IMG/VR virus record: IMGVR_UViG_3300030451_005897
Coordinates: 1-36,810 of that record
Direction: 5' to 3' (one strand)
DNA length: 36,810 nt
Source of the DNA: a virus
Shown: in pieces, positions 902 through 36,463 of the stretch
How positions within the stretch are numbered: position 1 is the first letter of the stretch
Layout of the letters: every line of letters starts with the position of its first letter
Program-made: the position numbers and the translations under genes
Notes under the pieces: model-generated
Databases searched by the model: none
What the model saw: only the letters and a program-made list of their open reading frames with translations
Told to the model about the DNA's origin: nothing

Positions 902-902
902 A

Positions 903-11982: not shown

Positions 11983-11999
11983 AGTATATCTATGTTCCT
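11983..11999 (-). promoter_or_regulatory. AGGAAC-type promoter P12 (tRNA-Leu)
   Basis: AGGAAC (11999-11994), 5 nt (ATAGA), TATACT (11988-11983), about 48 nt before tRNA-Leu. Its box overlaps the plus-strand late promoter at 11999-12004 by one base. Confidence 0.72.
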
Positions 12000-12004
12000 A
12001 AATA
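11999..12004 (+). promoter_or_regulatory. late promoter variant
   Basis: CTAAATA with 5 nt to the ATG at 12010, the usual spacing for late genes in this window. Confidence 0.6.
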
Positions 12005-12009
12005 TATAT

Positions 12010-12252
12010 ATGAAGGATCTTCTTACTTCTATCAAGTGTAGATTAGAAGAATTTACTAATAATGTATTCGTAGATTATGAGAGAGAATCAATTCTCTTAG
12101 AGATTCATGAAGATTATTTCGACGAGGTTATAAGAGAAGTTAAAAAACATTCCGATTGTAATATAATGTTTGTTAAAAGATTAAAAAAAGATACTGTAAC
12201 TATACTAATCAGTCAAATAGTCATCATTGATGTAGATCATCTTAATGAATAA
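12010..12252 (+). CDS. hypothetical protein, 80 aa
   Basis: A small alpha/beta protein with no recognised family: helix (MKDLLTSIKCRLEEF), strand, helix (EVIREVKKHSD), then two hydrophobic strands (IMFVKRL, TVTILISQIVIID). A longer frame from 11992 exists, but 12010 sits exactly 5 nt after the TAAATA element, so it is preferred. The end overlaps the late promoter of the next gene. Confidence 0.65.
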   Translation: MKDLLTSIKCRLEEFTNNVFVDYERESILLEIHEDYFDEVIREVKKHSDCNIMFVKRLKKDTVTILISQIVIIDVDHLNE

Positions 12253-12255
12253 ATA
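12250..12255 (+). promoter_or_regulatory. late promoter
   Basis: AATAAATA (12248-12255), 5 nt to the ATG at 12261. The TAA stop of the upstream gene is part of the element. Confidence 0.8.
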
Positions 12256-12260
12256 TTATT

Positions 12261-13592
12261 ATGGATATAAGATTATCAAGTAATAATGCTACGGAAATAT
12301 GTACCGGTACTACTACAGGTACTAAATTAAGTGGATGCTTACATCTTAATAATTTCCCCAATCTTAAAAAAATTAATTCATTTAATAATGATATTGAAAT
12401 AGTTTATGGTATCAACGAAAATACTACTTTAACTGCAATAGAATTAGCTTGTAATAAACTAACTTCATTACCTATAATTAAAAATAAGCCTGGAATAGTA
12501 ACTGTAGATTTAAGAGATAATAAAAATATATCTGGAGAAATTTTTGATTCTTTTCCTTCTACATTAGAATGTTTTTGCGCAGAACATGTAACTAATCTTT
12601 CAGGTTATATGCCTCCTATCAACCAATGTTTAACTGATATATCATTTGCACCTAATTACATCTTAAGTGGTTCTATCACACCTATAGACAGTACTAGAAA
12701 ACTTAATATTGAAGACTTTTTTGCTAACCCGGGTAATACACTCTCATTAAATTCTAAAGAGTATGATGTTAATAAAGTTTCTACATTATCAGCTGCATGC
12801 GCCTTACCTGATAACTTATTTAGTGGAGGTAATACTGATATATTAGAGTATAATGTTTTTAATTTAAATGCAGTAGGTCAATTTAATAAATGTAACAGCA
12901 CAGCTTCTTCTCTTTTTGATGATGTTCCGAATTTATCAGTATTTAAAGCCGGTACTGTACCATTATCTAATAATGAAACAGGCACCGGTAACTATTATTA
13001 TTGTTTAGAAAGAGGTACACCATTAGTTCCATTAGCTTCAAGTGAAGATACAGCAAATATGATATCATTTGTACCGATAGACCATCCATTAAAAACTTTA
13101 AAGATTGAAGGATTCCAAAGATCAGCTACAAGAGATAGCGGCGGAGCAATAACAGTTGATGGAGGATCAAAATTTGGTTATTGTGGTAACATTGGAATAT
13201 ATGGTAACTCTCTCTCTGGAGATAAATTTTATGTCTCTGAAAATACTACTAATATTAGTTTTGCTAATAATAGATTAAATGGAGTTCAAACTTTAAACAT
13301 CTTATCAGGTGTTTGTCATACAGCAGTAACTTGCGGGGTAACTGGAGGGTTGCTTGATTTAAGAGGTAATTCAATGGTTAATTGTTTTAGTGTATCTAAT
13401 TATAGTGGCATTAGTGCTACAGGTAATAATTTGTGTACTTGCCTAGGAACAGTTGTAGGGGCTCCTTTCGGTAAATTAGTAAAAGAATGCGGTTGGACCG
13501 TTTTATATAGTTTAAATTCTGATTGTGGATGGACTGCTGAAAGTACAACTATTAATGCAGGTCCTAATGTTTGTACTACTCCTATTGATTAA
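12261..13592 (+). CDS. LRR-like, cysteine-rich late protein, 443 aa (probable adhesin or fibre)
   Basis: A probable virion appendage protein. Residues 20-125 show leucine-rich-repeat-like spacing (LHLNNFPNLKKIN, IELACNKLTSL, VDLRDNKNISG). The rest is Gly/Thr/Asn/Ser-rich with further solenoid-like pieces (ISFANNRLNGV, LLDLRGNSMVN). About 18 cysteines are unusual for a phage cytoplasmically assembled protein; two C-terminal repeats share the form C-GWT (near 412 and 425). It has no signal peptide. Its stop overlaps the convergent glycosyltransferase gene by 4 nt. Host recognition is inferred from context. Confidence 0.65.
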   Translation: MDIRLSSNNATEICTGTTTGTKLSGCLHLNNFPNLKKINSFNNDIEIVYGINENTTLTAIELACNKLTSLPIIKNKPGIVTVDLRDNKNISGEIFDSFPSTLECFCAEHVTNLSGYMPPINQCLTDISFAPNYILSGSITPIDSTRKLNIEDFFANPGNTLSLNSKEYDVNKVSTLSAACALPDNLFSGGNTDILEYNVFNLNAVGQFNKCNSTASSLFDDVPNLSVFKAGTVPLSNNETGTGNYYYCLERGTPLVPLASSEDTANMISFVPIDHPLKTLKIEGFQRSATRDSGGAITVDGGSKFGYCGNIGIYGNSLSGDKFYVSENTTNISFANNRLNGVQTLNILSGVCHTAVTCGVTGGLLDLRGNSMVNCFSVSNYSGISATGNNLCTCLGTVVGAPFGKLVKECGWTVLYSLNSDCGWTAESTTINAGPNVCTTPID

Positions 13593-14494
13593 TTCTTCTG
13601 AATAGAGTCTACAATATCTTGAAGTTTAAAAATATCATTAGACGGATAAGGAAAATCATGCTCAGGCCCGTTAAAGTCATTATCAAAGAACTGAGCGTCT
13701 ACAAGCCTAGATGTAACATCCGTTGGTTTAATATTAGGCATAATATTTGTATGCATTTTATAACCAAATACTTTAGGACTAGTACCTATCCAACATACAG
13801 TAGAGGGTAAATTAAATGCTGCGGCAGCATGTTGTAAACAACTATCTATTAACAATCTCTTTGAACTTTTTAATAACGTAGCAATAAAAGTTCTTTTGTT
13901 ATCTACATTTTCAATAAACTGAGCATTCTGCAATCTAGGACTATTAGGTTTTGCTATTTGTATTACTTCATAGATTTTACTTAACTCATTAGTTAATAAC
14001 TGAGCTTGACCAATAGGGAAGTCTCTTGTCCATGAGTATGATTTCTCTGAATCGTATGGCCCTCCATTAGTTTGAAATATTAATATGGGTTTAGTAAACT
14101 GGTTTAAATTCGCTGCATAGTTATCTACTTCCGCTGGTGTAAAGAAAATTTCAGGCTTTGCTTCTTTCTCATTATATTCCAAGTCATGTAAATCGCACCA
14201 TGATTTAATTAGATGCTGCGCCTGATACATATGTTTAGGTTGAAAATAAGGTTCACCTTTTAATACAATGCTATCTCTTCCTTCTATATAATCTTTATAG
14301 AAATATGGCGTATTGAAACTTTTATAGCATCTATATATTCTAGGATTATTTAAAAATATTTCTGCCCAAGGCGAAACAACCACTACCTTATGTTCAGGGT
14401 ATTTTTTTATTATGAAAGGTATTAATGCAGTTGATGCAATTATTTTACCTAGACCACCTTCAGGGTTAAATACAACATAATTTTCTTTAGCCAT
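13589..14494 (-). CDS. GT9-type (heptosyltransferase-like) glycosyltransferase, 301 aa
   Basis: The N-terminus (VVFNPEGGLGKIIASTALIPF) and the C-terminal nucleotide-binding region (LLIDSCLQHAAAAFNLPSTVCWIG) match glycosyltransferase family 9, whose members transfer ADP-heptose and related sugars in LPS synthesis using a GT-B fold. The length is a little below the usual 320-350 aa. It lies among fibre genes and has a late promoter with a 5-nt start spacing, so it is made late. It could glycosylate virion fibres or modify host surface sugars; neither donor nor acceptor can be read from sequence. Confidence 0.78.
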   Translation of the reverse strand: MAKENYVVFNPEGGLGKIIASTALIPFIIKKYPEHKVVVVSPWAEIFLNNPRIYRCYKSFNTPYFYKDYIEGRDSIVLKGEPYFQPKHMYQAQHLIKSWCDLHDLEYNEKEAKPEIFFTPAEVDNYAANLNQFTKPILIFQTNGGPYDSEKSYSWTRDFPIGQAQLLTNELSKIYEVIQIAKPNSPRLQNAQFIENVDNKRTFIATLLKSSKRLLIDSCLQHAAAAFNLPSTVCWIGTSPKVFGYKMHTNIMPNIKPTDVTSRLVDAQFFDNDFNGPEHDFPYPSNDIFKLQDIVDSIQKN

Positions 14495-14499
14495 AAAAA

Positions 14500-14505
14500 T
14501 ATTTA
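14500..14505 (-). promoter_or_regulatory. late promoter
   Basis: TAAATA on the minus strand, 5 nt before the ATG at 14494. Confidence 0.7.
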
Positions 14506-14523
14506 CCTATTTTTTTATAGAAA

Positions 14524-14724: not shown

Positions 14725-14730
14725 ATAATT

Positions 14731-14736
14731 ATTATA
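14731..14736 (-). promoter_or_regulatory. possible -10 box, leaderless spacing
   Basis: TATAAT (14736-14731) 6 nt before the ATG at 14724, without the AGGAAC element found elsewhere. Confidence 0.35.
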
Positions 14737-14770
14737 TATTACTAATTATTGTAATCAAGGATTTAATCGA

Positions 14771-14776
14771 TAAATA
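14771..14776 (+). promoter_or_regulatory. late promoter
   Basis: GATAAATA with 7 nt to the ATG at 14784. Confidence 0.75.
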
Positions 14777-14783
14777 ATAATAT

Positions 14784-15785
14784 ATGGCCGAGCAAGCTTC
14801 AAAGGTAATAATAAAGTCAACTAATATTGATTTATATAAAGATAATTACGTATCGTTTAGAACTGCATACCCTATAACAAGTGCTGAAGGTATAGCAGTT
14901 TTTATAACTAATACTGATATGTTCGATTCTGATTTATTTACAGATTCATATATGCCATTTGTTACAGGTTACGGTTTAGGTTTATTGCCTAATTTTAGAA
15001 ATATAACCCAGACAGACGCTAATGGTGCAGCAGTAGACAATTTAGGTGGTACTACGTTATGGACATTTTCAACCCCTAATACAGGTACTCAACTAAATGG
15101 ATTATCTGCGGATGAAACATTCATGCCTGTTAAATGGGGTGATGGTACTTTAAGTTCAGGATCTGGATCAGTTAATAAAACTTATAATAATTACTCCGGT
15201 AAACCATTATCTGGATTTAATTATTTCTTTAACCACATTGCATCCGTAGCATTGGATGGAAGAGGTGGTTACGGGTTATCAGGATTTGCATTTACAGATG
15301 GAGGTAATAACTATCTAAGCAGATATTCAATAACTAATAGAGTATTATCTGATATGCTATCAACAAATGATAGTAGAGGTACTTTTAGTGTAGCTTCTCA
15401 TTGCAATACAACAGAAAGAGTAGCAGTGCTTTCTACTGGGTATGGTACTAATGGTATAGGTGTAGAGTTAGATAGTGCACAAAACCAAATACATGAAACA
15501 TCAGGGCTAACTTATAGAATTAAATTTAGTGCATTTTTAGTAGATATGAGAGTAGATGTCTTAACTTCTAATAACGAGTTTAATAATGAGTTTAAAACTA
15601 TAGCAGATTTATCTGGAGCTGATTTAAGAACTGAAGAAAAAAGAAATGAGTTCATTAAAAAAATACCAAGATATGGTAGAATTGGTATAGCATATGCAGG
15701 TAACAGTTCTTCATACGATGGTGATTACTCTTCTGGAAAGAAAGCAAGTCAAGGCATCCAGGATATAACTCTTAACTTAGGATAA
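14784..15785 (+). CDS. late structural-type protein, 333 aa
   Basis: Rich in Gly, Ser, Thr, Asn and Tyr with short beta segments, typical of phage appendage proteins, but no domain is recognised. The N-terminus (SKVIIKSTNIDLYKDNYVSF) is more ordered; the middle has Gly-rich loops; the C-terminus has a charged helix (LRTEEKRNEFIKKIPRYG) and a strand-like end. It lies between the glycosyltransferase and fibre genes, which suggests tail-fibre or decoration use. Its end overlaps the convergent fibre gene by 9 nt. Confidence 0.65.
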   Translation: MAEQASKVIIKSTNIDLYKDNYVSFRTAYPITSAEGIAVFITNTDMFDSDLFTDSYMPFVTGYGLGLLPNFRNITQTDANGAAVDNLGGTTLWTFSTPNTGTQLNGLSADETFMPVKWGDGTLSSGSGSVNKTYNNYSGKPLSGFNYFFNHIASVALDGRGGYGLSGFAFTDGGNNYLSRYSITNRVLSDMLSTNDSRGTFSVASHCNTTERVAVLSTGYGTNGIGVELDSAQNQIHETSGLTYRIKFSAFLVDMRVDVLTSNNEFNNEFKTIADLSGADLRTEEKRNEFIKKIPRYGRIGIAYAGNSSSYDGDYSSGKKASQGIQDITLNLG

Positions 15786-16580
15786 TTTCTTTTTAGTCTT
15801 TTTTACCGGTGCAGTGTTATTAATTGATTTTTTAAGAATCTCAACTTCTTTATTAAGTCTCTTTATTTCTGCAAATAAGATAGGTATAAAGCTTTGATAG
15901 TCTAATCTTAACCACTCATTTTCATGGACTAAACTTTCATCTACTGCTTTTACTTCCTGTGCTATAAAACCTTTACCCTTTTGTCCATGCTTAGGGCTTT
16001 TTTCATTCCATATATACTCATAAGCATTTAATTTATCAAAATAAATCTTACTATCTAAAGGTTTAATTTGATCTTTAAGTCTTTTATCAGATGCAGCGAA
16101 TGCAGTAATATCACCATTAACGCTTAGATCACCGGTAAAGGTAACATCTCCATTACCGACGCTTAATGCACCATTAACAGTGGTAGCTGCAGAAACTGAT
16201 AAAGTTTGATACATTGTTGTGGTACCTCTAAATATACCATCACCTGTAAAGTTGAATGAGTTAGCTGATAAATTACCTTTTACCATTAAGTTAGAGTCAG
16301 CTCTTAGATTGCCGTTAGTTATTAGTTCACTATTTAAAGTAGTTACACCTTCTACAGTTAAAGGTGATGGAACTGTGTTAGTACCTATGGTAACTGCTCC
16401 ATTTGTAACGTTTAATGGTCCATTTAAATCAGCGCCTGCCCCGTCCGGAGCTAATGATAAAGATAATTGATTACCGATACCGTCAGTTAATTTTGTTTTA
16501 GCAGTTATTTCATTATTATCAAGACTTTTTACCAAACCTTGATATGTTGCATTAATATTAGTACCGTTCAATGTTGCCAT
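15777..16580 (-). CDS. tail fibre with S74 self-cleaving chaperone domain, 267 aa
   Basis: The N-terminal 160 residues are a repetitive beta region (LNGPLNVTNGAVTIG, GDVTFTGDLSVNGDIT) as in triple-stranded fibres. Residues 162-250 form a peptidase S74 intramolecular chaperone: the Ser164/Lys169 dyad in ASDKRLK, then YEYIWNE, KGFIAQEV and a C-terminal coiled coil (AEIKRLNKEVEILKK). S74 domains drive trimerisation and then cut themselves off just before the catalytic Ser. It shares N-terminal motifs with the neighbouring 291-aa fibre, whose stop overlaps its ATG. It should be a distal fibre or spike. Confidence 0.88.
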   Translation of the reverse strand: MATLNGTNINATYQGLVKSLDNNEITAKTKLTDGIGNQLSLSLAPDGAGADLNGPLNVTNGAVTIGTNTVPSPLTVEGVTTLNSELITNGNLRADSNLMVKGNLSANSFNFTGDGIFRGTTTMYQTLSVSAATTVNGALSVGNGDVTFTGDLSVNGDITAFAASDKRLKDQIKPLDSKIYFDKLNAYEYIWNEKSPKHGQKGKGFIAQEVKAVDESLVHENEWLRLDYQSFIPILFAEIKRLNKEVEILKKSINNTAPVKKTKKKLS

Positions 16581-17460: not shown

Positions 17461-17466
17461 TATTTA
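17461..17466 (-). promoter_or_regulatory. late promoter
   Basis: ATAAATA with 5 nt to the ATG at 17455. Confidence 0.8.
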
Positions 17467-19536
17467 TTAAATAATCACGGTAGACAAAGGCGGTATTCTA
17501 CTTCCAAGTCTTGTGACTTCAATAAGCTCCAAAATTTTAGTTTGATATTCATATAAATTTGTTATAACTCTATTTAAAACATTGCCGTTTAACGTTTCAT
17601 TTACCCCTACAAAGAATTGACTAGGGTCTTCTATTTTAGCTATTTTTTTATCATCATAGGTTAGTTCAGTAAAGTCATCAAAAAATAAATAAAAATCAGT
17701 TGCAAATTTAGCTAATACTTTTTTATTTAAATTTTGCACTAACATATTTAAATTATTGATATGTTTATAGAAAGCTAGATTAAAAGTTATATTATTAAAG
17801 TATTCATTAGATAATAAAATTTCACTCCTTTTATAAAAGCTAGGACCTTTAGTAGTTAAAAGACTTACATCATCGTTGCTTTCCACGAATTTAAATATAC
17901 GGGTATTAGCAAATGCCAAAATAGTTTCATTATTATCTATATCATCTGGTACACTTACAATTGGATTGTCTACAAAAAAGAATCTATCAAAATTAGGTAA
18001 TTGGTCCCAAGTTGTTTGACCCATTGCTGAATAATCTATAAACGTAGTATTCCATAAATTAGCATCATCAAAAGTTAGGTCAATAGTAAATTTATTAACT
18101 AACTCATTTTGTTTATTAATATAATATTTGTATATATTTTTATTTGTTACTAAATAATAAATGTTACTGTTGTTAGTAGAAAATTCTATCTTTCTTGGTT
18201 CTTCTACAAAACCTTCTACTAATGGTATTTCATATGCAAATCTATTTGTATTATATACAAACTTATCCTTTACTGTTAAATTATCTCCATCTAATATTTT
18301 AACTTCAAAATCGTTAGTTACAATCCACAACTCATTATGAAACGAATTAAATGACATGTTTTGAAATGCATGCTCTTTAAAATATTTTTCATTAAAGTAT
18401 TCGATTTGAAATTTTAATTCTTTAGTATATTTTCTTATACTATTAGTATATCTCATATAAACATATACTGAATCATTACCATAGACAACAATACTATTAC
18501 CTGATAAATTAGTATTATAAGTTCCAATACCACCTATAGTATCAATATGTTCAAAATTTCTTAACCCAGTTCGGTCTTCGTTAACTATAGTATTAACATC
18601 TAATTTATATAATGCATTACCACTTAAATCATTTACAAATAATAAATTATCGGGGGTAGTAGCTAAGCTTGTAATTCTTTTAAATTTAATTTGATTAGAA
18701 TCGGTACCTACATTAGTAGAACTTGCAACAAATGAAAAAGTGGTATGTGCATCATTTAACTGATAAGCATATAAATTAGAACTAATAGCAAAAAATAATG
18801 TATACCTATCTGTATTTTTAGTACTTCTAGCTGCAGCTATCGTAGCGGATTTTGTATCATCATTATCACCAAAACCTGCATCGAAAACAGATAACGGAGG
18901 GTAAAAATCAGATGCAAGAGACCCTGCTGAAATAAATTGTTCATTTGATCTTATAATTTGCCAAGACGTGTTTACATTAAATTCTGGATCTGATCCTCCT
19001 GGACCTCCTTCATTAGATGATAAAGTAATATAAGCAGGAAAGTTATCAGGCACTAATGGGTCATTTAAAACTGTATAGTTATATATTTTAGCAAAATTTC
19101 TATAAAAAAGATCTAATTTATAGTTTATAGAGTTTTTATTTATAATTTCATTCGGTTTAAATAAAATATCATCTAAAACAAAATCAAATTTTAATTGAGA
19201 AAATATGGTTGTATCAAAATATTTACCTGCAAAGATATTATCATTATAAACGTTTTCAATTGGTACTAACTTATCTAATTGATTATACTTTGTTTTATAT
19301 ACGTTATTGTCTTTATCTATATTAACATATCCTATATATTTGTTACCTTCAAAAGTAAAATCATTACCATCTGTATAGTAAAACCTTTTATTATAATCAA
19401 TAACAGAACTTACCCCTACATTACTTGCGTAATTTAAAGGTATATTCCCAGCAATACTTTCAGTAGATGAAGTTACAGAAGAAGAACCTCCACCGGAGTA
19501 AGGATTGCTAGAATAACTACCACCGTGATAAGCCAT
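17467..19536 (-). CDS. large tail/baseplate-type protein with propeller-like repeats, 689 aa
   Basis: Begins with a Gly/Ser/Tyr-rich linker (MAYHGGSYSSNPYSGGG). Residues about 210-480 contain repeated strand sets of the beta-propeller kind (FVNDLSGNALYKLDVNT, ELWIVTNDFEVKILDGDNLTV, NIYYLVTNKNIYKYYINK). The C-terminus is helical and may be a coiled coil (LAFYKHINNLNMLVQNLNKKVL). It has a strong AGGAGG site and no promoter of its own; it follows the 1397-aa gene immediately (TAATGG overlap). An appendage or baseplate role is inferred from position after gp6. Confidence 0.7.
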   Translation of the reverse strand: MAYHGGSYSSNPYSGGGSSSVTSSTESIAGNIPLNYASNVGVSSVIDYNKRFYYTDGNDFTFEGNKYIGYVNIDKDNNVYKTKYNQLDKLVPIENVYNDNIFAGKYFDTTIFSQLKFDFVLDDILFKPNEIINKNSINYKLDLFYRNFAKIYNYTVLNDPLVPDNFPAYITLSSNEGGPGGSDPEFNVNTSWQIIRSNEQFISAGSLASDFYPPLSVFDAGFGDNDDTKSATIAAARSTKNTDRYTLFFAISSNLYAYQLNDAHTTFSFVASSTNVGTDSNQIKFKRITSLATTPDNLLFVNDLSGNALYKLDVNTIVNEDRTGLRNFEHIDTIGGIGTYNTNLSGNSIVVYGNDSVYVYMRYTNSIRKYTKELKFQIEYFNEKYFKEHAFQNMSFNSFHNELWIVTNDFEVKILDGDNLTVKDKFVYNTNRFAYEIPLVEGFVEEPRKIEFSTNNSNIYYLVTNKNIYKYYINKQNELVNKFTIDLTFDDANLWNTTFIDYSAMGQTTWDQLPNFDRFFFVDNPIVSVPDDIDNNETILAFANTRIFKFVESNDDVSLLTTKGPSFYKRSEILLSNEYFNNITFNLAFYKHINNLNMLVQNLNKKVLAKFATDFYLFFDDFTELTYDDKKIAKIEDPSQFFVGVNETLNGNVLNRVITNLYEYQTKILELIEVTRLGSRIPPLSTVII

Positions 19537-23735: not shown

Positions 23736-23741
23736 TATTTA
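23736..23741 (-). promoter_or_regulatory. late promoter
   Basis: TTAAATA with 6 nt to the ATG at 23729. Confidence 0.75.
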
Positions 23742-23769
23742 ATTTTAAAAACTAATTAGACAAGAGTTA

Positions 23770-24594
23770 TTATGTAAGAGCTCCGTCCTGAGGCGTGGAT
23801 CTGGTGGTTATAGGTTCATAAATTCTAAACGAACCCATTCCTGAAGTACCTACCATATAATTAGAATCAGTTTTTGTTGAACTAAAAATAATTTCTTTAT
23901 CAACAATTTCTGCAAATATATCTTTACTAGTCGTTTCTATACTATCAACAACCTTAAATGAGTCATTGGTGTTTGTAAAAATAAAACTGCTAGTAGTAAA
24001 TTGAAAAGTACTATTAGTTTCATAATTAGTCTCAGTAACTAATTGAGATTGATTACCGTCAATGGCTAAATCTATTTTATAATTATTTGATGATAATACT
24101 CTTGAAGTTGATGCACTATTCCATCTTGTAACATAAAATTTTACTGTACTTTCTGATAAATTTTGATTATCAGAGTCCTTAGATAAAAATATTTTATCTG
24201 ATATAACATCTTTTACATTTAATCTGCATGTTTGAGCTGATTTAAAAACGTTACCCGCGCTATTATATACACATAAAGTTATATTATAATCACCTGGTAA
24301 ATCATATCTGTGATATGCAGATAAATTATTATATACTACAGTACCGTCACCGAAATCTATAAAAAAATTAGTATCACTAATAGTATCATCTGCACTTAGA
24401 AATCTAGGAGTCACGGTAAATCCACCGAAGTTACCTGTAAACATTCCAGATAAATTATTAGGTGTATTTGTAAACCCATATAGGAAGTCAGGGTCAATAA
24501 TTATATCTCCATATCTATTTCTTACTTCAAATGGAGCTTTTATAGCAGTTAAATTACTATAATCTGTTTCAAAACTATAACTTAAATTAGACAT
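23770..24594 (-). CDS. PKD-domain baseplate-associated protein, 274 aa
   Basis: Residues about 60-128 are a PKD-type Ig-like domain: FGDGT (81-85), then HRYDLPGDYNITLCVYN, the usual signature. The flanking regions are beta-rich and unrecognised. PKD domains in virion proteins usually mediate surface contacts. The gene overlaps the end of gp6 by 8 nt and should be co-translated, so a wedge-periphery or fibre-attachment role is likely but inferred. Confidence 0.75.
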   Translation of the reverse strand: MSNLSYSFETDYSNLTAIKAPFEVRNRYGDIIIDPDFLYGFTNTPNNLSGMFTGNFGGFTVTPRFLSADDTISDTNFFIDFGDGTVVYNNLSAYHRYDLPGDYNITLCVYNSAGNVFKSAQTCRLNVKDVISDKIFLSKDSDNQNLSESTVKFYVTRWNSASTSRVLSSNNYKIDLAIDGNQSQLVTETNYETNSTFQFTTSSFIFTNTNDSFKVVDSIETTSKDIFAEIVDKEIIFSSTKTDSNYMVGTSGMGSFRIYEPITTRSTPQDGALT

Positions 24595-26406: not shown

Positions 26407-26412
26407 TATTTA
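26407..26412 (-). promoter_or_regulatory. late promoter
   Basis: TTAAATA with 5 nt to the ATG at 26401. It overlaps the end of the gp25 gene. Confidence 0.72.
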
Positions 26413-26413
26413 A

Positions 26414-26887
26414 TTAAAAAGTATAAAAACCGGATTTACTTAATGCACCTTTTAGGTTCAGAGGGTTATTAGAGAAGTCAGGAATAATTATAGTTATATC
26501 AACTTCATACTCTTGTTGCTCTTCATCTGCAACTACATTAATTTTTTGTATAGTTATTCTTGGTTCAAACGATGAAAAATTACGTAATATAGTATCACCT
26601 ATAATTTTACCTCTTTGCTTAGAGACTGGTAGAAATAATAAGTCTCCAAAATTTATACCAAATGTTGGACTCAATATTTTTTGACCAGGGGATGTTAACA
26701 TCATATTTACTAGACTATTTTTTACAGCTTCAAAATTAGTTTTAGTTATCAGATCTTTATTATTTTCTTTATCTACTAAAGCATTTGTTGTAGTCTGACC
26801 AACTTTCATATTTAAATCTATATCATTAAAAATGATATCGTCTGTTGGTGTGTCAACTTTTTGTAAAATATTAGCTTTAATAGGCAT
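26414..26887 (-). CDS. gp25: baseplate wedge protein gp25-like, 157 aa
   Basis: A member of the gp25/GPW family. The key stretch is MMLTSPGQKILSPTFGINFGD, followed by FEPRITIQKINV and YEVDITIIIPD; these are the conserved loop and strands of gp25, the sheath-like wedge subunit that nucleates sheath assembly. A longer N-terminus than T4 gp25 (132 aa) is present. Its late promoter sits 5 nt before the ATG and gp6 follows within 12 nt. Confidence 0.88.
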   Translation of the reverse strand: MPIKANILQKVDTPTDDIIFNDIDLNMKVGQTTTNALVDKENNKDLITKTNFEAVKNSLVNMMLTSPGQKILSPTFGINFGDLLFLPVSKQRGKIIGDTILRNFSSFEPRITIQKINVVADEEQQEYEVDITIIIPDFSNNPLNLKGALSKSGFYTF

Positions 26888-26892: not shown

Positions 26893-26898
26893 TATTTA
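26893..26898 (-). promoter_or_regulatory. late promoter
   Basis: TTAAATA with 5 nt to the ATG at 26887. It overlaps the stop of the gp14-like gene. Confidence 0.78.
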
Positions 26899-27702
26899 AT
26901 AATAATCTCCGTATACATCATCAGGATTATCAGACATATCAAAAACATCTGCCTTACTTATATCATCTACGTTGTATTGATCGTATCCATCTTTCTTAGG
27001 CTGACTTTGTTCATTAACCCCTCCAGCTGCTCTACCTGCAAATGAATCTTCATAAACCTGAGCATTACCAGATATATTACTTGTTAAGTTGTTAAACGGT
27101 ATATTAGGTTCAAAGCTATAATCTAATCGTTTAGCTTTTATTTTAAATACGTAATGACCACCTAACTGATTAATTTCAGCAATATCTTGATCTAACTTCT
27201 CAGTAACTTCAAAGTACTTAGCTTGTCTATTAGACGGTCTATCATCTCCGTATTCTGATAATTGAAATACATCCCCAGCTTTAGGTTCCACTACAATTGG
27301 TGAAAAATTAGATGCAGATAGATCAAAAGAAGAAAGATCTTCAAAACTACTTTGAAATGAACTTATATGTATATAACCAGTTATTGCATCGTCACTATCA
27401 AAGCCGAATCTACTTAAAGTTATTGCATCTTCATTTAAAGTAACTGCTATAATAGTATCTACAGGATCAGCAAATGATCTATTAGGATCTTCTCCATAAA
27501 AATTATCACCGCTTAAAGTATTAAATCTATTGACAAAGTATTTTACTTTAGTCCCATATAAATTAATTTGCTCTCTCCAATAATTAGAAAATAATAATCT
27601 TTCATTTGAAGAGTTTTCATTATCTTTATTAGTAAATCTGAAACAGGTTTCGTCGGTTTGAACTATTCCAGGAAAATCACATGTATAATCTCCGCTACTC
27701 AT
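26896..27702 (-). CDS. gp14: gp14-like neck protein, 268 aa
   Basis: The pattern REQINLYGTKVKYFVNRFN, then FYGEDPNRSF, a long beta region, KAGDVFQLSE and YVFKIKAKRLDYSFE is that of the T4 gp14 neck protein and its marine relatives, which close the portal and join head to tail. Length agrees with T4 gp14 (256 aa). The C-terminus is acidic and Asp/Tyr-rich. It overlaps the upstream 102-aa gene by 4 nt. Assigned by pattern, not by alignment. Confidence 0.72.
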   Translation of the reverse strand: MSSGDYTCDFPGIVQTDETCFRFTNKDNENSSNERLLFSNYWREQINLYGTKVKYFVNRFNTLSGDNFYGEDPNRSFADPVDTIIAVTLNEDAITLSRFGFDSDDAITGYIHISSFQSSFEDLSSFDLSASNFSPIVVEPKAGDVFQLSEYGDDRPSNRQAKYFEVTEKLDQDIAEINQLGGHYVFKIKAKRLDYSFEPNIPFNNLTSNISGNAQVYEDSFAGRAAGGVNEQSQPKKDGYDQYNVDDISKADVFDMSDNPDDVYGDYY

Positions 27703-28007
27703 CGCTCTATTACAAACTTTCCTAAATTGTTATCAAAATATAGTTTAATACCAGTACTGCCTAATTTCTTAATTTGTCCTTTTATAGGTACAACTTTATA
27801 TGTGTCTCGTATATAAGTTAGTTCTGGTGATCCGCAAATATGTTTACCTTTACCTCCTCTTAATAATTCTATTTTTGAATTCTTAGTAGGGTCAGTTTTC
27901 ATATAATCAGGCACTAGATTTAAGGATTTACGTCGATAATGTTTATCATGGTCTGTAAAACCTCTTCTATGTCTATGATTAGTAAAAAATTTAGAAAAAG
28001 TATCCAC
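27699..28007 (-). CDS. basic late protein, 102 aa, GTG start
   Basis: A small basic protein rich in His and Arg near the start (FTNHRHRRGFTDHDKHYRRK), with a beta-rich C-terminal half (YKVVPIKGQIKKLG...IKLYFDNNLG). An ATG at 28037 lies inside the upstream terminator and is unlikely; a GTG at 28007 is 5 nt after a TTAAATA late element, exactly as at other late genes, so GTG is chosen. No family is recognised; its partner gp14 suggests a neck or head-completion role. Confidence 0.65.
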   Translation of the reverse strand: MDTFSKFFTNHRHRRGFTDHDKHYRRKSLNLVPDYMKTDPTKNSKIELLRGGKGKHICGSPELTYIRDTYKVVPIKGQIKKLGSTGIKLYFDNNLGKFVIER

Positions 28008-28012
28008 GAAAA

Positions 28013-28018
28013 TATTTA
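28013..28018 (-). promoter_or_regulatory. late promoter before a GTG start
   Basis: TTAAATA with 5 nt to the GTG at 28007. It lies right after the terminator of the upstream gene. Confidence 0.75.
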
Positions 28019-28021
28019 AGC

Positions 28022-28047
28022 AAAAAAAAGCTGGCATAAAGCCAGCT
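28022..28047 (-). terminator. Rho-independent terminator
   Basis: Minus strand: 7-bp stem AGCTGGC/GCCAGCT, 5-nt loop and a run of about eight U. It ends the transcript of the acidic protein gene. Confidence 0.9.
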
Positions 28048-28081
28048 CTTAAAATTAGTTGATTGAAGTCAATTAAAAGTA

Positions 28082-28942
28082 TTAATCACCGAATAAATCA
28101 GCGCCAACTTTTAGGTTACCAACTTTATTATTTTTAGTAGATGTTAAAGAATGACCACCTGCATCACTCATTTCAGATCCACTATCATCTTGCTTCTTGA
28201 TCTTAGCATCTGCTTTCTTAGAAGACGCTTTTAATGCTACTTTGTTGTTCTTAGGATTTTTTAATCCTGAATCTTTTTGATTTACTAGTGCATGACCATG
28301 ATCTTCAGCATCAACTGCTTCTTCAGCAACTTCTTCATCTTCTTCATCTTCGCCATCTTCTGAATCTTCAGCATCTTCTTCATAATCAGAAACTTCTTCC
28401 ATTTCTTCATAATCTTCATGCTCCATGTCTTCAGCTTCGTCACCTTCACCCATTGCTGCTTGTAAAAGATCGCAAAGACTCTTAGCCATGTCTTTATCTA
28501 ATTCAATTGTGATTGTATCACCGGCTTCGGAAACTTCATCAGTTTCGGTATCTACTCCGAGTGCTTCAAGCTCACCTTGCTCTTCATCACTCATTACGTT
28601 TTCAAATAATTTATCAAATGTTGACTTCATGTAATTATTTATTGACTCTTTAACCTTTTTTCCAACTTTTTTATTATATTGTTCATCAGAAAACTTTTCC
28701 ACATCATCTCCTACTTTATTTTTAGCAGGATCATTAACTGTATAAGGCTCTTTTTCAAATCCATCTGCATTTTCAGGACCTGAAGTATCTTTATTTGTAA
28801 GCTCGTTACTCTTGTTTAAATTCTTAGCACCTGGCCCTGGTTTAATACCCATTTTAGCTGCTTTTGCTGCTGGAGCAGATTCAGATAATATATTCTTATT
28901 ATATGTATCCCATATTTCTGTTAAAGTGTTTACACGTGTCAT
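28082..28942 (-). CDS. acidic late protein, 286 aa (possible prohead core or internal protein)
   Basis: Three parts: a Lys/Ala/Pro-rich N-terminus; a short ordered helix-strand part (TITIELDKDMAKSLCDLLQAAM); and a long Glu/Asp-rich stretch of about 65 residues. The C-terminus has a duplicated motif: GHAL...KNNKVALK and GHSL...KNNKVGNLK. Acidic composition fits T4 prohead core proteins, but no match is certain. The start at 28942 rather than 28978 is set by TATAAATA with 5-nt spacing. It is transcribed alone, divergent from terminase, and ends with a terminator. Confidence 0.7.
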   Translation of the reverse strand: MTRVNTLTEIWDTYNKNILSESAPAAKAAKMGIKPGPGAKNLNKSNELTNKDTSGPENADGFEKEPYTVNDPAKNKVGDDVEKFSDEQYNKKVGKKVKESINNYMKSTFDKLFENVMSDEEQGELEALGVDTETDEVSEAGDTITIELDKDMAKSLCDLLQAAMGEGDEAEDMEHEDYEEMEEVSDYEEDAEDSEDGEDEEDEEVAEEAVDAEDHGHALVNQKDSGLKNPKNNKVALKASSKKADAKIKKQDDSGSEMSDAGGHSLTSTKNNKVGNLKVGADLFGD

Positions 28943-28955
28943 AAATATATTTATA
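28940..28955. promoter_or_regulatory. bidirectional late promoter
   Basis: A near-perfect palindrome containing TATAAATA on the minus strand (28955-28948), 5 nt before the ATG at 28942, and CATAAATA on the plus strand (28940-28947), 13 nt before the terminase ATG at 28961. Confidence 0.72.
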
Positions 28956-28960: not shown

Positions 28961-30652
28961 ATGGCAAAAGATAAACAAAATTATATGAATAACCCTAATT
29001 TACCTACCGTAGGGGCTGAATTTGCATATACTCCTAAGATGGTAAAAGAAATAGAGAAGAGCTCTAAAAATATATTGCACTTCGCTGAAAATTATTTTCA
29101 TATAGTATCATTAGATGACGGTAAACAAAAAATTAAACTTCATTATTGTCAAAAACGAGTACTAAGAAAAATGAGAGATAATAGATTTTTTGTATTATTA
29201 GCTTCTCGCCAGATTGGTAAAACAACGATGATGACAATTTATGCATTATGGAATGCATGCTTTAATAATGATCAACGTATATTGGTAGTAGCTAATAAAG
29301 AAGGTACCGCTATAGAAATAATGAATAGGATTAGATTAGCATATGAAGAATTACCTAATTGGTTAAAACCTGGAGTTAAAGAGTATGGTAAGACTTCTGT
29401 TACGTTTGCTAATGGAACTAAAATAGGTATATCAACTACCACCGGTACAGCAGCTCGTGGTCAATCAGTTAATATACTAATACTTGATGAGTTAGCTTTT
29501 ATTGAACCTCATTTAGTAGAAGACTTTTGGAAATCAGTTTATCCTATTATTTCATCATCTAAAAAGTCTAAAATTTTCATAGCATCAACTGCTAATGGTA
29601 CTGATAATCTTTTCTATAATTTATATACTGGAGCTGAAGCAGGTGAATCAAACTGGTCATGTGATAAAATTTTATGGAATGAAATACCAGGTAGGAATGA
29701 GAAATGGAAACAAGAAACTATTAGATCGATAGGAAGTAGAGATGCTTTTGAGCAAGAGTTTAATTGTGTATTCTTAAACTCTGGTGAAAGTACTCTAGAT
29801 GATGACTTATTTGATAGGCTTAAAGTACAGGCATCTGAACCAAAATATGTGTTTGATGAAGGTAAGTATTTACTTTGGGATGAACCACACGATGACCGTA
29901 TATATATAGCAAGCGTCGATACATCTGAAGGTTTAGGTAAAGACGCTTCAGTTATACAGGTATTTGAGTATTCTGATTTAACTAATATAACTCAAGTTGC
30001 ATGCTACCATGATAGTACAATATCCCCGTATAATTTTACAGAAAAAGTATATGAAATTTTACAGCATTGGGGTAAGCCATTAGTTTGTATAGAGAGAAAT
30101 AATTGTGGAGCTCAAGTTGTTGATGGGTTAAAGAATACTTACGATTATGAAAATATAATTTCTTGGGGATCATCTACTGCAAGTAGAAAGAGTCAATCTC
30201 AATTAGGAATAGTAGCTCATACAAATACGAAATATAAAGGTGTTACTAATATGAGATATTGGCTTAATGAACTTAATGCAGTTAAAATTAATGATATACA
30301 ATTAGTAAAAGAATTAAAAAACTTTATTAAGTTTGCAAACGGCACGTGGGGAGCTAAAAGAGGCTACCATGATGATAGAGTAATGGCTTTAATTTGGAAT
30401 TTAATTATTTTAATTGATGATATAGTTAGCAGGTATTTTGAAGTAACAAAATATGATAGTAATAAAAGACCTCTTGAGCTTGAGCAATTTGATTATGGTA
30501 TTAAATACTTTATGAACCCTACTTCAATGTATACCAATGAAAAGATTAACGAGTTCGGAAGTACTATGCCCGTTATTATTGGTAATGCAACAAAGGCAGA
30601 GTCAGAAATGGATTTATTAATGAAGCAAGGATATAAGGTATGGCAGCAGTAG
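28961..30652 (+). CDS. gp17: large terminase subunit gp17, 563 aa
   Basis: The packaging motor ATPase and nuclease. Walker A ASRQIGKT (81-88), Walker B ILILDE (172-177) and the coupling motif IASTANG (207-213) are all present. The nuclease part carries SVDTSEG (Asp320), CIERN (Glu378) and YHDDRVMA (Asp471/472), the three acidic positions of the T4 gp17 nuclease. The length is close to T4's 610. The portal (gp20) is outside the window. The next gene starts 13 nt before its stop. Confidence 0.95.
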   Translation: MAKDKQNYMNNPNLPTVGAEFAYTPKMVKEIEKSSKNILHFAENYFHIVSLDDGKQKIKLHYCQKRVLRKMRDNRFFVLLASRQIGKTTMMTIYALWNACFNNDQRILVVANKEGTAIEIMNRIRLAYEELPNWLKPGVKEYGKTSVTFANGTKIGISTTTGTAARGQSVNILILDELAFIEPHLVEDFWKSVYPIISSSKKSKIFIASTANGTDNLFYNLYTGAEAGESNWSCDKILWNEIPGRNEKWKQETIRSIGSRDAFEQEFNCVFLNSGESTLDDDLFDRLKVQASEPKYVFDEGKYLLWDEPHDDRIYIASVDTSEGLGKDASVIQVFEYSDLTNITQVACYHDSTISPYNFTEKVYEILQHWGKPLVCIERNNCGAQVVDGLKNTYDYENIISWGSSTASRKSQSQLGIVAHTNTKYKGVTNMRYWLNELNAVKINDIQLVKELKNFIKFANGTWGAKRGYHDDRVMALIWNLIILIDDIVSRYFEVTKYDSNKRPLELEQFDYGIKYFMNPTSMYTNEKINEFGSTMPVIIGNATKAESEMDLLMKQGYKVWQQ

Positions 30653-31251
30653 ATCAATCACAATTTAATAAAAGTAGATTAGATAAATTTTTACTTGTTA
30701 TAGATTTACCTAACTCGCTAAAAGATATACTAACTACTGACTTAGCCGATAGAAAAAATACATCTATAATAAGTGATTCTCTTCAATTTTCAGTTTATGG
30801 GTCAATTGTTCCGGAAGTTTTAGTACCAGAAAAAGCTCTAGGTTATGCCGGGCAATCAATTAAAATATCGTCTCATGTTAGACCGGTTTATCCTAATGTT
30901 AATGTAAATTTTACTATTGATAACCAATTTAATAATTATTGGACCATATATAAATGGTTAGATTTCTTGAATGATGAAAAGGAATCAGTCTTCAATAGTA
31001 AAAACATAGCAAAAACGCCAGAAGTTGCATCAGGATTTAAAACTAAAAAAACTTTAACGCCATCTGATTTATATCAAGCAGATTTTAGTCTTTATGCTAA
31101 AAATGAATTTGATCAGGATATAGTAAAATTTACATATACCAATGCTTTTCCTGTAAGTTTAGGTAAAATAGATTTTAATTATAGAGACCCCGGTGAAATA
31201 GAAACTAGTTTTGAATTTGCATTTTCACAATTACTTGTTGAATTGATATAA
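30640..31251 (+). CDS. gp19-superfamily tail protein, 203 aa
   Basis: The middle and end follow the T4 gp19 tube fold: VNFTIDNQFNNYWTIYKWLDFL, then YQADFSLYAKNE, FTYTNAFPVSLGKIDFNYRD and a final strand. It is not the main tube, since a clearer gp19 is at 35031. It could be a second tube-like protein or a tail terminator/completion component. It starts inside the terminase gene with a Shine-Dalgarno-like GCAAGGA upstream and no late promoter. Confidence 0.7.
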   Translation: MAAVDQSQFNKSRLDKFLLVIDLPNSLKDILTTDLADRKNTSIISDSLQFSVYGSIVPEVLVPEKALGYAGQSIKISSHVRPVYPNVNVNFTIDNQFNNYWTIYKWLDFLNDEKESVFNSKNIAKTPEVASGFKTKKTLTPSDLYQADFSLYAKNEFDQDIVKFTYTNAFPVSLGKIDFNYRDPGEIETSFEFAFSQLLVELI

Positions 31252-31266
31252 TTTGTCCTCGGAGAA

Positions 31267-31274
31267 TATAAATA
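31267..31274 (+). promoter_or_regulatory. late promoter (exact octamer)
   Basis: TATAAATA with 7 nt to the ATG at 31282. Confidence 0.85.
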
Positions 31275-31281
31275 ATAATAT

Positions 31282-33711: not shown

Positions 33712-33739
33712 TAACCGTTGGTAAGCTGACAGTCTTCAA

Positions 33740-33745
33740 TAAATA
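33740..33745 (+). promoter_or_regulatory. late promoter
   Basis: ATAAATA with 5 nt to the ATG at 33751. Confidence 0.8.
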
Positions 33746-33750
33746 TTAGT

Positions 33751-34221
33751 ATGGCGGATACTAAAGTATCAAATTTAACTGAATTAACGACAGCAGATAG
33801 TACTGATGTATTGTATATTGTCGACACCAGTGACAGTAAATCTAAAAAAATAACCTTTAATAATTTATTAAAGAATAATGCAGGTATTACTTTTCCTAGT
33901 GTTGTAACGACAGTAACTTCTTTATCTACTGATTTCGTTTCTATATCTACAGCAGTTGAACAAGTAACGGCATTCCAAACAGCTTCAGTTGCTTCATTAA
34001 GTACTGATTTATTAATTCTAAGTTCAAATCATAATTCATTGAGTTCAGATGTTGATGGGTTAAGTGCTTATGAAGGTAGAAAAGATATATTTTTAAGTTT
34101 AAGCGCCCAAGCAACTCGCGGAGGTAACGGTACAGCAGCTTCTCCACTAACTGTTAACGTTACTGATGGATCAACAACAACATTAACCTTCATTAGTGGA
34201 ATGTTAGTAGGGACAACATAA
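33751..34221 (+). CDS. small fibre-like late protein, 156 aa
   Basis: The start (SNLTELTTADSTDVLYIVDTSDSKSKKITFNNLL) is the 'LTELT...DVLYIVD...SKKITFNNL' module seen at the N-terminus of many phage fibre-like proteins. The middle is a Ser/Leu/Asp heptad-like stretch (LSTDFVSISTAVEQV...LSTDLLILSSNHNSL) likely to form a coiled coil. It is followed directly by a paralogue. It may be a virion decoration or whisker. Confidence 0.72.
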   Translation: MADTKVSNLTELTTADSTDVLYIVDTSDSKSKKITFNNLLKNNAGITFPSVVTTVTSLSTDFVSISTAVEQVTAFQTASVASLSTDLLILSSNHNSLSSDVDGLSAYEGRKDIFLSLSAQATRGGNGTAASPLTVNVTDGSTTTLTFISGMLVGTT

Positions 34222-34991
34222 TGGCAAATAAAAGATTAACAGATTTAGATACAATAACAACTTTATCAAATGACGATTTACTGTATATCGTAGATCCTAT
34301 TTTAAATCAATCTAAAAAGATTACTTTTGAAAATTTGGTAGGAACCACTACAGGAACTATTTCGACTAATGTTAATACGTTAAGTACAGCATTTAATTTA
34401 TTATCTGGATTTGGAGGAGTAGAAAATGGACAAGGCGGTTTATATTCTTTTGCTATACCTAATATAATTAATTTATCAGCAGCATTCGGTACCTCGCCAG
34501 TCGGTTTTAGAGAAGGACATACATACGTTGATGGTGATGTTTTTCCTGTTACAACTGCTTTAACCTTTTTATCAGCAGATGCGTTGGGTAAAATAACTAA
34601 TTTAGAAAATAATAAAGCTGATGGTAATACCAATACAACTTTTCTAAGTACTGAATTTGATAAGTTAAGTGCTAATGTTGATTTTTTATCATCTAGTGAT
34701 GGACGAAATGCTACTGGATTTGCAAGTCTTTCAACTCAAGTTCATGATTTATCTACTATAGTGGTTACCAATGCAGGATTAGCATTTACAACTTCTAACG
34801 CTACATCATCAGATGCTACCTTTAGAAATATAGGGGTAAATACCGCAGATGGTAATAATTTAAGATACCCAGCTCCATCAACTCCAGCAGCAGCTCAATT
34901 AACTGATTTCGCTGCATTGAAAGAAGGTATAAGATTTATACCTGTTACTATTGGAAGTGATACATTTAGATTACTATTATCTGCAACTTAA
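34221..34991 (+). CDS. small fibre-like late protein, paralogue, 256 aa
   Basis: A paralogue of the gene before it: TDLDTITTLSNDDLLYIVDP...KKITFENLV repeats the same N-terminal module, and LSTEFDKLSANVDFLSS and LSTQVHDLSTIV echo the Ser/Leu heptads. A non-shared middle and C-terminal part follow. Its ATG overlaps the previous stop (TAATGG), so the two are co-translated. Their place between sheath and tube genes is unusual for fibre-like proteins. Confidence 0.72.
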   Translation: MANKRLTDLDTITTLSNDDLLYIVDPILNQSKKITFENLVGTTTGTISTNVNTLSTAFNLLSGFGGVENGQGGLYSFAIPNIINLSAAFGTSPVGFREGHTYVDGDVFPVTTALTFLSADALGKITNLENNKADGNTNTTFLSTEFDKLSANVDFLSSSDGRNATGFASLSTQVHDLSTIVVTNAGLAFTTSNATSSDATFRNIGVNTADGNNLRYPAPSTPAAAQLTDFAALKEGIRFIPVTIGSDTFRLLLSAT

Positions 34992-35016
34992 TTAAGCTAA
35001 AATTAGTAAGAATGCA

Positions 35017-35022
35017 TAAATA
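35017..35022 (+). promoter_or_regulatory. late promoter
   Basis: CATAAATA with 8 nt to the ATG at 35031. Confidence 0.75.
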
Positions 35023-35030
35023 ATTATAGT

Positions 35031-35576: not shown

Positions 35577-35591
35577 TTCTAAACATCTTTT

Positions 35592-35613
35592 CGTATTAAA
35601 TATTATTAATACG
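35592..35613 (+). repeat. inverted repeat spanning a late promoter
   Basis: Arms CGTATTAA (35592-35599) and TTAATACG (35606-35613) with a 6-nt loop. The late element TTAAATA spans the left arm and loop. Confidence 0.75.
35597..35602 (+). promoter_or_regulatory. late promoter inside an inverted repeat
   Basis: TTAAATA followed by 13 nt to the ATG at 35616, longer than the usual 5-8 nt. Confidence 0.7.
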
Positions 35614-35615
35614 AC

Positions 35616-36449
35616 ATGGCTTTAGGTGGATCATATAATAACGCATTAAGGAGTTTAAACAATCTTGGAGGAGGTTTACTAGGTGCTCCAAGTCTTGATT
35701 TAATAGGTGCAAATATACCTTTCGCTCCATTAATTAGTTTTAGAGATTTTTTCTTAGATAACTTTAATCAATGGACCAACTCAATACCTTTAAATACTCA
35801 GTTTATAATTTTAATTGATAGATATCCTCCAGGTTTATCTACAAGTAATTTAAGAGATTTAGAAGCACCAACCGCTACTGGCTTTGATATAGATATAGCA
35901 GCTTCTCTTTTAACCAGTACTAAAAATCAAAATATAATAGGGTGTATATTTGCTAATGGGTTTACTATAGGTTCGGAAAGTTTAAGGGTTAGAGAAGCTC
36001 CTATACCGAATAATAGAGGTTTTATACCAGGAACTATTTTAGGAGAAAGAAGTGGGTTTGCAAACAATTTATTACAAGTTAATTTTAGAGAAACAAATAC
36101 ATCATTTGTAGATGTATTAATGAGACCATGGTTAATAATGTCATCTCATCACGGTTATGTAGCAAGAGACCCTAATGATATAGAACAATCTGATAAAGAT
36201 ATGAAATGTAATATTACAATTTTGCAATATACTAGATCAGATAAAGGATTAGCTCAAATACCTAGAAAAACATGGAGATTTTTTAATTGTGTTCCAACTA
36301 CTTTGGATTCAAGAGCTCATTTGTATAGTGATAGTGAAAACGTAAATAACTACACTGTTGGTTTCGCTTATGATAAATATGAAGTTGGTAATAATTTATA
36401 CGGGTCAATTAATCAGCTTATAAAGAGTATTAACCCGTTTAACTTTTAA
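35616..36449 (+). CDS. gp54-like tail tube initiator / baseplate hub protein, 277 aa
   Basis: The sequence PLNTQFIILIDRYPPGL, then VNFRETNTSFVDVLMRPWLIM...GYVARD and CNITILQYTRSD...KTWRFFNCVP resembles the gp19-like fold of T4 gp54 or gp48, which cap the baseplate hub and start tube growth. Length is similar to T4 gp54 (320 aa). A Gly/Leu-rich N-terminal 35 residues precede the fold. Its position after gp19 and before a probable tape measure agrees. Which of gp48 or gp54 it matches cannot be decided by eye. Confidence 0.7.
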   Translation: MALGGSYNNALRSLNNLGGGLLGAPSLDLIGANIPFAPLISFRDFFLDNFNQWTNSIPLNTQFIILIDRYPPGLSTSNLRDLEAPTATGFDIDIAASLLTSTKNQNIIGCIFANGFTIGSESLRVREAPIPNNRGFIPGTILGERSGFANNLLQVNFRETNTSFVDVLMRPWLIMSSHHGYVARDPNDIEQSDKDMKCNITILQYTRSDKGLAQIPRKTWRFFNCVPTTLDSRAHLYSDSENVNNYTVGFAYDKYEVGNNLYGSINQLIKSINPFNF

Positions 36450-36451
36450 CT

Positions 36452-36457
36452 TAAATA
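36452..36457 (+). promoter_or_regulatory. late promoter
   Basis: TTAAATA with 6 nt to the ATG at 36464. Confidence 0.75.
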
Positions 36458-36463
36458 TTTTAT

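Follow-up and report, generated by a model that had tools for sequence, protein, structure and literature searches.

The window analysed here is a 36.8-kb (36,810-nt) stretch of viral DNA with 70% A+T, in which each of 17 late genes lies behind an element with a TAAATA core and two variable first bases. Homologues of the virion genes gp6, gp17, gp18, gp19 and gp25 are among the genes with this box upstream. The spacer between the end of TAAATA and the start codon is 5 nt in nine genes, 6 nt in three, 7 nt in two, 8 nt in one and 13 nt in two. All 17 elements that the original prediction had matched to genes were present at the implied places, and its figure of 15 start codons at 5-8 nt was reproduced on recounting, but exactly 5 nt was found for nine genes rather than the ten it had reported.

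Late elements and start codons

Spacers of 5 nt follow the plus-strand elements at 11997..12004 (CCTAAATA, ATG 12010), 12248..12255 (AATAAATA, ATG 12261), where the TAA of the element also ends the reading frame of the gene upstream, and 33738..33745 (AATAAATA, ATG 33751). On the minus strand, the same spacing is found at 14500..14507 (GGTAAATA, ATG 14494), 17461..17468 (AATAAATA, ATG 17455), 26407..26414 (ATTAAATA, ATG 26401, gp6-like baseplate wedge), 26893..26900 (ATTAAATA, ATG 26887, gp25-like baseplate wedge), 28013..28020 (CTTAAATA, GTG 28007) and 28948..28955 (TATAAATA, ATG 28942). The 6-nt spacers follow TATAAATA at 2191..2198 (+; ATG 2205, a 1055-aa protein whose gene is only presumed late), ATTAAATA at 23736..23743 (-; ATG 23729, a 1397-aa protein) and CTTAAATA at 36450..36457 (+; ATG 36464). 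Those of 7 nt follow GATAAATA at 14769..14776 (+; ATG 14784) and TATAAATA at 31267..31274 (+; ATG 31282, gp18 tail sheath), and the 8-nt spacer follows CATAAATA at 35015..35022 (+; ATG 35031, gp19-like tail tube). The two exceptions named in the original prediction are both at 13 nt, with a predicted leader of ~8 nt and no Shine-Dalgarno sequence: the gp17 terminase gene (ATG 28961; CATAAATA, 28940..28947, +) and the gene at ATG 35616 (ATTAAATA, 35595..35602, +), earlier annotated as gp54-like, for which the best PHROG match is a tail tube. The gp17 element adjoins the divergent minus-strand element at 28948..28955, with a palindromic core.

For 14 of the 17 genes, no other start codon lies between the start and an in-frame stop 6-45 nt upstream. 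Three starts differ from the longest-ORF start: 28942, which is the first ATG in its ORF, the GTG at 28007, for which relatives have ATG at the aligned codon, and 12010, the least certain of these corrected starts, with another in-frame ATG at 11992. An ATG-only caller without start correction still recovered 12 such genes. The next in-frame start codon lies at least 20 residues inside nearly all element-led genes, and alignments of their products with relatives begin at residue 1.

In 2000 dinucleotide shuffles of the upstream regions, TAAATA fell 5-8 nt before the start in a mean of 0.39 genes (maximum 4, compared to 15 observed), and exactly 5 nt before it in a mean of 0.10 (maximum 2, compared to nine observed). 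TAAATA precedes only 5 of the window's 1344 other ATGs by 5-8 nt (Fisher p about 1e-25). TAAATA is under-represented across the window, with 91 occurrences against 131 expected, so its crowding before start codons is not an effect of AT content.

Shine-Dalgarno sequences, gene overlaps and terminators

None of the 17 element-led late genes in the window has a Shine-Dalgarno sequence. Counting matches of four or more bases in the window and the related contigs G001 and G003, we found one before 4 of 105 near-leaderless late genes and before 37 of 159 unclassed genes, while in T4 and KVP40 they precede 21 of 23 element-led genes.

Six late genes have no element, and every one of them overlaps the preceding gene, by 1-13 nt. 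The minus-strand genes at 17467..19536 and 15777..16580 each overlap by 1 nt and have Shine-Dalgarno sequences, a strong one (AAGGAGGAGG) and GGAGGG, respectively. On the same strand, the gene at 23770..24594 overlaps its upstream neighbor by 8 nt and is presumed to be translationally coupled, and the gene at 26896..27702 overlaps by 4 nt. On the plus strand, the tail-tube-like gene at 30640..31251 overlaps gp17 by 13 nt and has a weak Shine-Dalgarno sequence, and the gene at 34221..34991 overlaps by 1 nt and has none. The idea that operon-internal genes keep strong Shine-Dalgarno sites thus applies to two of the six (starts 16580 and 19536), the others having one weak site and three none.

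Intrinsic terminators that end 12-22 nt before a start codon, with the element in between, were found in 32 non-redundant cases with differing stems, which caps the leader length in many genes. In the window, the T run of a minus-strand terminator (AAGAGCTGGCTTTATGCCAGCTTTT, 28026..28050) ends 14 nt ahead of the GTG start at 28007, so that this terminator caps the leader of that gene. Some element-led genes start only 8-14 nt after another gene on the same strand.

Early TATAAT promoters show a spacer peak 6 nt before the start codon, which is the register expected for sigma70 if +1 falls on the A of ATG, with the -10 box ending at -7. Three early genes with TATAAT spacings of 17-31 nt have a Shine-Dalgarno-like sequence. 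Early sigma70-like promoters would obey the same near-leaderless rule in most cases. The terminator-capped leaders, the early 6-nt TATAAT peak and the overlap of all element-less late genes are new here.

Element spacing across relatives

Close spacing between element and start is a property of a clade of uncultured T4 relatives. In related contigs with 53-87% gp17 identity to the window, the element peaks at 4-7 nt, whereas in T4, KVP40, Syn9, S-PM2, P-SSM2 and XG4, analysed identically, it lies mostly 12-40 nt before the start. The comparison with related phages that had been proposed as a check placed close spacing in the clade contigs and not in classical T4-like phages. Among non-redundant contexts of core relatives, there were 6 cases at 0-4 nt, 132 at 5 nt, 37 at 6 nt and 32 at 7 nt, giving a hard lower edge at 5 nt; contig G008 has several 4-nt spacers. 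Spacing is kept between orthologues while the surrounding sequence changes: in related contigs, some of them overlapping or near-identical, the 28942 gene has a spacer of exactly 5 nt in 33 of 34 orthologues and the 33751 gene one of 5-6 nt in all 28. Hexamers of the same composition that do not overlap TAAATA are not enriched at the place of the element.

At 138 sites with a 5-nt spacer, the base before the start is T or C in 94%, matching the usual start-site preference. Where the spacer is 6-13 nt, almost every element in the window has a T-A step at nt 5-6 downstream of it; the step is common in G001 and weak in G003, suggesting that the start position may vary by 1-3 nt. We do not claim that +1 invariably falls on the sixth nt past the box, since this pattern, which holds in the window and for the most part in G001, is weak in G003.

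A profile search for the gp55-family sigma (phrog_234) covered the relatives, with the window, a 36.8-kb fragment, outside the search, and gave matches in most clade contigs tested (G002, G003 and G007-G011) but none in the 75.8-kb fragment of G001. Compared to T4, gp55 is shorter in the clade, the match stopping at model position 127-156 of 181. The gp45 sliding clamp is only weakly recognisable: four contigs encode proteins of 243-245 aa that match its profile weakly. A Pfam clamp model was silent in the clade. The Pfam model for the N-terminal part of the clamp is silent even in Syn9 and so uninformative. Neither a phage-encoded IF3 nor a ribosomal S21 that might act as a cause was present in the clade contigs tested. 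No psbA was present in the clade contigs tested for it, which speaks against a cyanobacterial host and, together with a gp17 tree in which the cyanophages lie outside the clade, against membership in the T4-like cyanophages. Far-T4 phages are recognised by their grouping with RM378 or Lake Pavin contigs in gp23, gp20 or gp17 trees; judged through RM378, whose gp17 has a very long branch and is placed outside the clade, membership in this group was not supported. A tRNA-Arg was uninformative about the host, as bacterial contigs from many phyla, 17 in all, contain an exact 45-nt match to it.

Scanning for a single exact leaderless late sequence gave 84 stretches. Six stretches (L163, L214, L184, L193, L231 and L212) have many such genes but no late protein in common with the window, and a PHROG scan assigned them few functions; they may be further segments of the same phages or may come from different lineages.

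Promoter interpretation and known systems

The T4 late box has its first bases at -13/-12 (PMC2988020) and spans -13 to about -6, so that with a spacer of 5 nt, +1 would coincide with the A of ATG. It is highly probable from the sequence evidence that the elements are T4-type late promoters moved so that +1 falls at or just before the start codon, giving near-leaderless late mRNAs. This reading, already put forward in the original prediction, is the best supported, with 5' ends deduced from a conserved element and its spacing edge, the lack of this spacing in classical T4-like phages, the absence of Shine-Dalgarno sequences, the terminator caps and the gp55 homologue in relatives. Host RNA polymerase with the gp55-family sigma would recognise the late elements, and transcription would start at the start codon or 1-3 nt before it. 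Late mRNAs would then be leaderless (5'-AUG, once 5'-GUG) or nearly so, with up to ~8 nt for gp17 and the 35616 gene, and would be translated without a Shine-Dalgarno sequence, presumably by ribosomes binding the 5'-terminal start codon. Most late genes would have their own promoter, and the remaining ones, overlapping the preceding gene, would be translated by coupling or from their own Shine-Dalgarno sequence.

The AT-rich stretch before the start could instead be an unstructured, S1-binding translation enhancer on longer transcripts, with no promoter, which we consider improbable. The region is indeed AT-rich, many bacteria use AT-rich initiation regions lacking a Shine-Dalgarno sequence (PMC3160421), and element-led genes only 8-14 nt downstream of a same-strand gene would also ride on read-through transcripts. 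However, the signal consists of one particular 6-mer placed at a constant distance with a sharp limit, rather than of general AT richness, and other hexamers of its composition are not enriched there. It is also the T4 late box, in a lineage with gp55, and it is missing from the six late genes that overlap their predecessors and would be in equal need of an enhancer. Two box types with two modes, at 5 and 6 nt, each fit known start-site geometry, and terminators directly upstream deny many genes a longer transcript.

The start site used by T4-type promoters can vary somewhat. Together with some 4-nt spacers in G008, this would favor late promoters at which transcription begins 2-3 nt later, losing the first codon and leaving translation to an internal start or to longer upstream transcripts. 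Such an arrangement is very unlikely given the distance to the next in-frame start in nearly all genes, the N-terminal alignment with relatives and the avoidance of spacers below 5 nt in core relatives. Chance or a gene-calling artefact, to which an AT-rich genome with 3 of 17 starts corrected might be prone, has a negligible probability: it is excluded by the shuffle and internal-ATG controls, and the starts are nearly all forced and are conserved across the sampled range of gp17 identity.

Late transcription in T4 is a textbook system, and the late virion proteins rank with the proteins produced most strongly during an infection. The clade resembles the T4 system of gp55, gp33, gp45 and the TATAAATA box (PMC2988020) in its 6-8 bp box with a TAAATA core, AT-rich start region, late structural genes and, in relatives, gp55-family sigma. 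In T4, the box is mostly 24-30 nt before the start with a Shine-Dalgarno sequence between them, whereas in the window the distance is mostly 5-8 nt with none. Late promoters of T4-like cyanophages (NATAAATA; PMC2984593, PMC3037559) have the same element at homologous virion genes, but its spacing is 12-39 nt in the stretches analysed from Syn9, S-PM2 and P-SSM2, with no case at 5-8 nt. Late-promoter prediction is reported to have failed in pelagimyophages (PMC7029224). Pelagibacter phage HTVC008M shares with the clade a few TAAATA sequences 5-8 nt before ATG (gp063, gp13, gene 092 and gp3) and one TATAAT at 6 nt, as in the clade's early promoters, but its virion genes mostly carry AAGGAGA-type leaders and its gp17 groups with cyanophages, outside the clade of the window.

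We found no literature report of leaderless late mRNAs in a T4-type system. Middle and late mRNAs of the lytic Thermus phage phiYS40 are mostly leaderless (PMC3594737), resembling the late mRNAs predicted for the clade, but its host belongs to a group rich in leaderless genes (PMC3160421), whereas in the clade a T4-type late box would be responsible. The logic is common to bacterial leaderless (TA-led) genes, defined in silico by a promoter box ~12 nt before the start (PMC3160421), although in bacteria the -10 hexamer of the host's sigma70 plays this part and in the clade's late genes a phage-type box does. We entertain only tentatively, leaning slightly against it, the broader idea that nearly all promoter-proximal genes of the whole T4-like lineage, early and late, are on leaderless mRNAs, with host ribosomes that tolerate them or initiation that is reprogrammed during infection. 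If late virion proteins are produced throughout such a lineage from mRNAs lacking a ribosome-binding site, either the host initiates efficiently on leaderless messages or the phage causes it to do so. As a practical rule, promoter and start codon can both be recognised in the clade from a TAAATA box 5-7 nt upstream, which helps to fix gene starts.

Late elements and start codons in the window

Late genes were taken from an ORF list built by simple first-ATG calling, and spacers from the last base of the T4-type TAAATA core to the start codon were measured in the upstream regions after starts had been corrected in three genes. Seventeen late genes carry the element, with spacers of 5 nt (nine genes), 6 nt (three), 7 nt (two), 8 nt (one) and 13 nt (two). 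This recount agrees with the original prediction of 15 genes at 5-8 nt, and lowers its count at exactly 5 nt from ten to nine. Shuffled upstream regions gave a mean of 0.39 genes with an element at 5-8 nt and a maximum of 4 in 2000 runs, versus the 15 observed. Only 5 of 1344 other ATGs in the window have an element at this distance, and the TAAATA 6-mer is under-represented across the window overall. The element of the gene starting at 35616 lies within an inverted repeat (CGTATTAA...TTAATACG, 35593-35616) that is partly retained in the IMG/VR locus L002.

The start codons of the element-led genes are secure. In 14 of 17, the reading frame is closed by a stop codon 6-45 nt before the start without an intervening start codon, the next in-frame start is at least 20 residues inside every gene except gp17 (terminase, start 28961; Met at residue 8), and orthologues in relatives aligned from residue 1 in most cases. 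The GTG start at 28007 is supported by relatives that carry ATG at the aligned codon; the start at 12010 is the least certain.

All 17 element-led genes are clear of a same-strand upstream gene (by at least 8 nt, far away, or divergent), and each of the six element-less late genes shares 1-13 nt with the gene before it (p about 1e-5), so the element marks genes needing their own promoter and the others can be coupled. No Shine-Dalgarno-like sequence lies just upstream of any of the 17. Strong sites had been described for operon-internal genes, which held for two of the six element-less genes and failed for the other four. With a 4-base criterion, Shine-Dalgarno sites precede 4 of 105 near-leaderless late genes (window and related contigs G001 and G003). 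The count is 37 of 159 for genes with neither box close by and 21 of 23 for T4 and KVP40 genes led by the element; the fraction is lower in cyanophages (8/32), so a missing site is not by itself diagnostic.

The best reading is that T4-type late promoters have moved so that late mRNAs would be leaderless or nearly so; transcript 5' ends, sigma recognition and translation are what we infer here from sequence. Among phages, leaderless late mRNAs have their precedent in Thermus phage phiYS40 (PMC3594737). We found no report of them in a T4-type system in a literature search short on subscription papers, probably including cyanophage start-site maps.

Spacing in relatives and known T4-like phages

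IMG/VR scans with gp17 and gp18 (tail sheath) yielded relatives at 67 loci, all uncultured contigs, and the spacing is kept in orthologues down to about 35% protein identity. Among partly redundant loci, 33 of 34 orthologues of the 28942 gene have a 5-nt spacer, and all 28 orthologues of the 33751 gene have one of 5-6 nt. Longer stretches of related contigs and known T4-like phages were put through the same scan. Spacers peak at 5-7 nt in G001, G003, G009 and G010 and at 4-5 nt in G008, whereas the element peak in T4 lies 24-30 nt before the start. In KVP40, Syn9, S-PM2, P-SSM2 and XG4 most elements lie 12-40 nt from the start codon and none at 5-8 nt, and HTVC008M is mixed, with a few genes at 5-8 nt and AAGGAGA leaders on most virion genes. 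In a gp17 tree the window belongs to a clade of 18 members with a long stem and support of 100/100; T4, cyanophages, HTVC008M and the added Rhodothermus phage RM378 fall outside. The contigs L163, L214, L184, L193, L231 and L212 contain many TAAATA-N5-ATG genes, yet have no match to the window's late proteins.

Promoter geometry and terminators

The first bases of the T4 late box lie at -13/-12 (PMC2988020), which by our reading puts its last base at -6 and leaves 5 nt before +1. Over non-redundant contexts in core relatives, spacers of 0-4 nt occur 6 times, 5 nt 132 times, 6 nt 37 and 7 nt 32, declining beyond; such an edge at 5 nt is what one would predict if the start codon is the latest point at which transcription can begin. 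Of 138 spacer-5 sites, 94% have T or C directly before the ATG. At other spacers, a T-A step is found at nt 5-6 past the box in most window sites and many G001 sites, but not in G003; the exact start may shift by a few nt.

In 32 non-redundant cases from the window and relatives, an intrinsic terminator's T run ends 12-22 nt before a start codon, with the late element between; the arrangement is constant while stem sequences vary. The terminator of the 28007 gene (28026-28050) is one case. Unless polymerase reads through, such mRNAs must begin inside the short gap. Terminator and late promoter are fused both at 28007-28050 and in the other 31 of these cases, which come from relatives, the T run abutting or nearly abutting the element.

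The 28942 gene and gp17 are divergent, and their late promoters (28940-28955) have a common palindromic core, TAAATATATTTA in the window and TAAATATTTA in relatives, kept in nearly all relatives. This core fixes the gp17 spacer at 11-13 nt.

Early promoters and expression machinery

Early genes (469-11860, minus strand) have a common GGAAC-N4/5-TATAAT motif, whose GGAAC part is too close to TATAAT for a -35 box. Ten such sites are gene-proximal in the window, seven with 5-8 nt from TATAAT to ATG and three with 17-31 nt; all three of the latter genes are preceded by a Shine-Dalgarno-like sequence. The -10 box of sigma70 promoters ends at -7, so the modal TATAAT spacer in core relatives, 6 nt, again makes the A of ATG the predicted +1. 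The late and early boxes thus differ in their spacing mode but share one predicted end point, an independent double check.

The late sigma factor family gp55 (phrog_234) was matched in G002, G003 and G007-G011, with a match shorter than that of T4. The gp55 homologues of L105 and L126 are short (157-159 aa), and their C-terminal part has no match to the T4 family model. The sliding clamp is weakly recognisable: 243-245-aa proteins weakly similar to gp45 in G001, G003, G009 and G010 (loci L117, L106, L115 and L116) are possibly a divergent form. Neither IF3 nor S21 was found in the clade contigs searched. At 15777-17455, two adjoining tail proteins have C-terminal ends that by eye resemble S74 chaperone domains.
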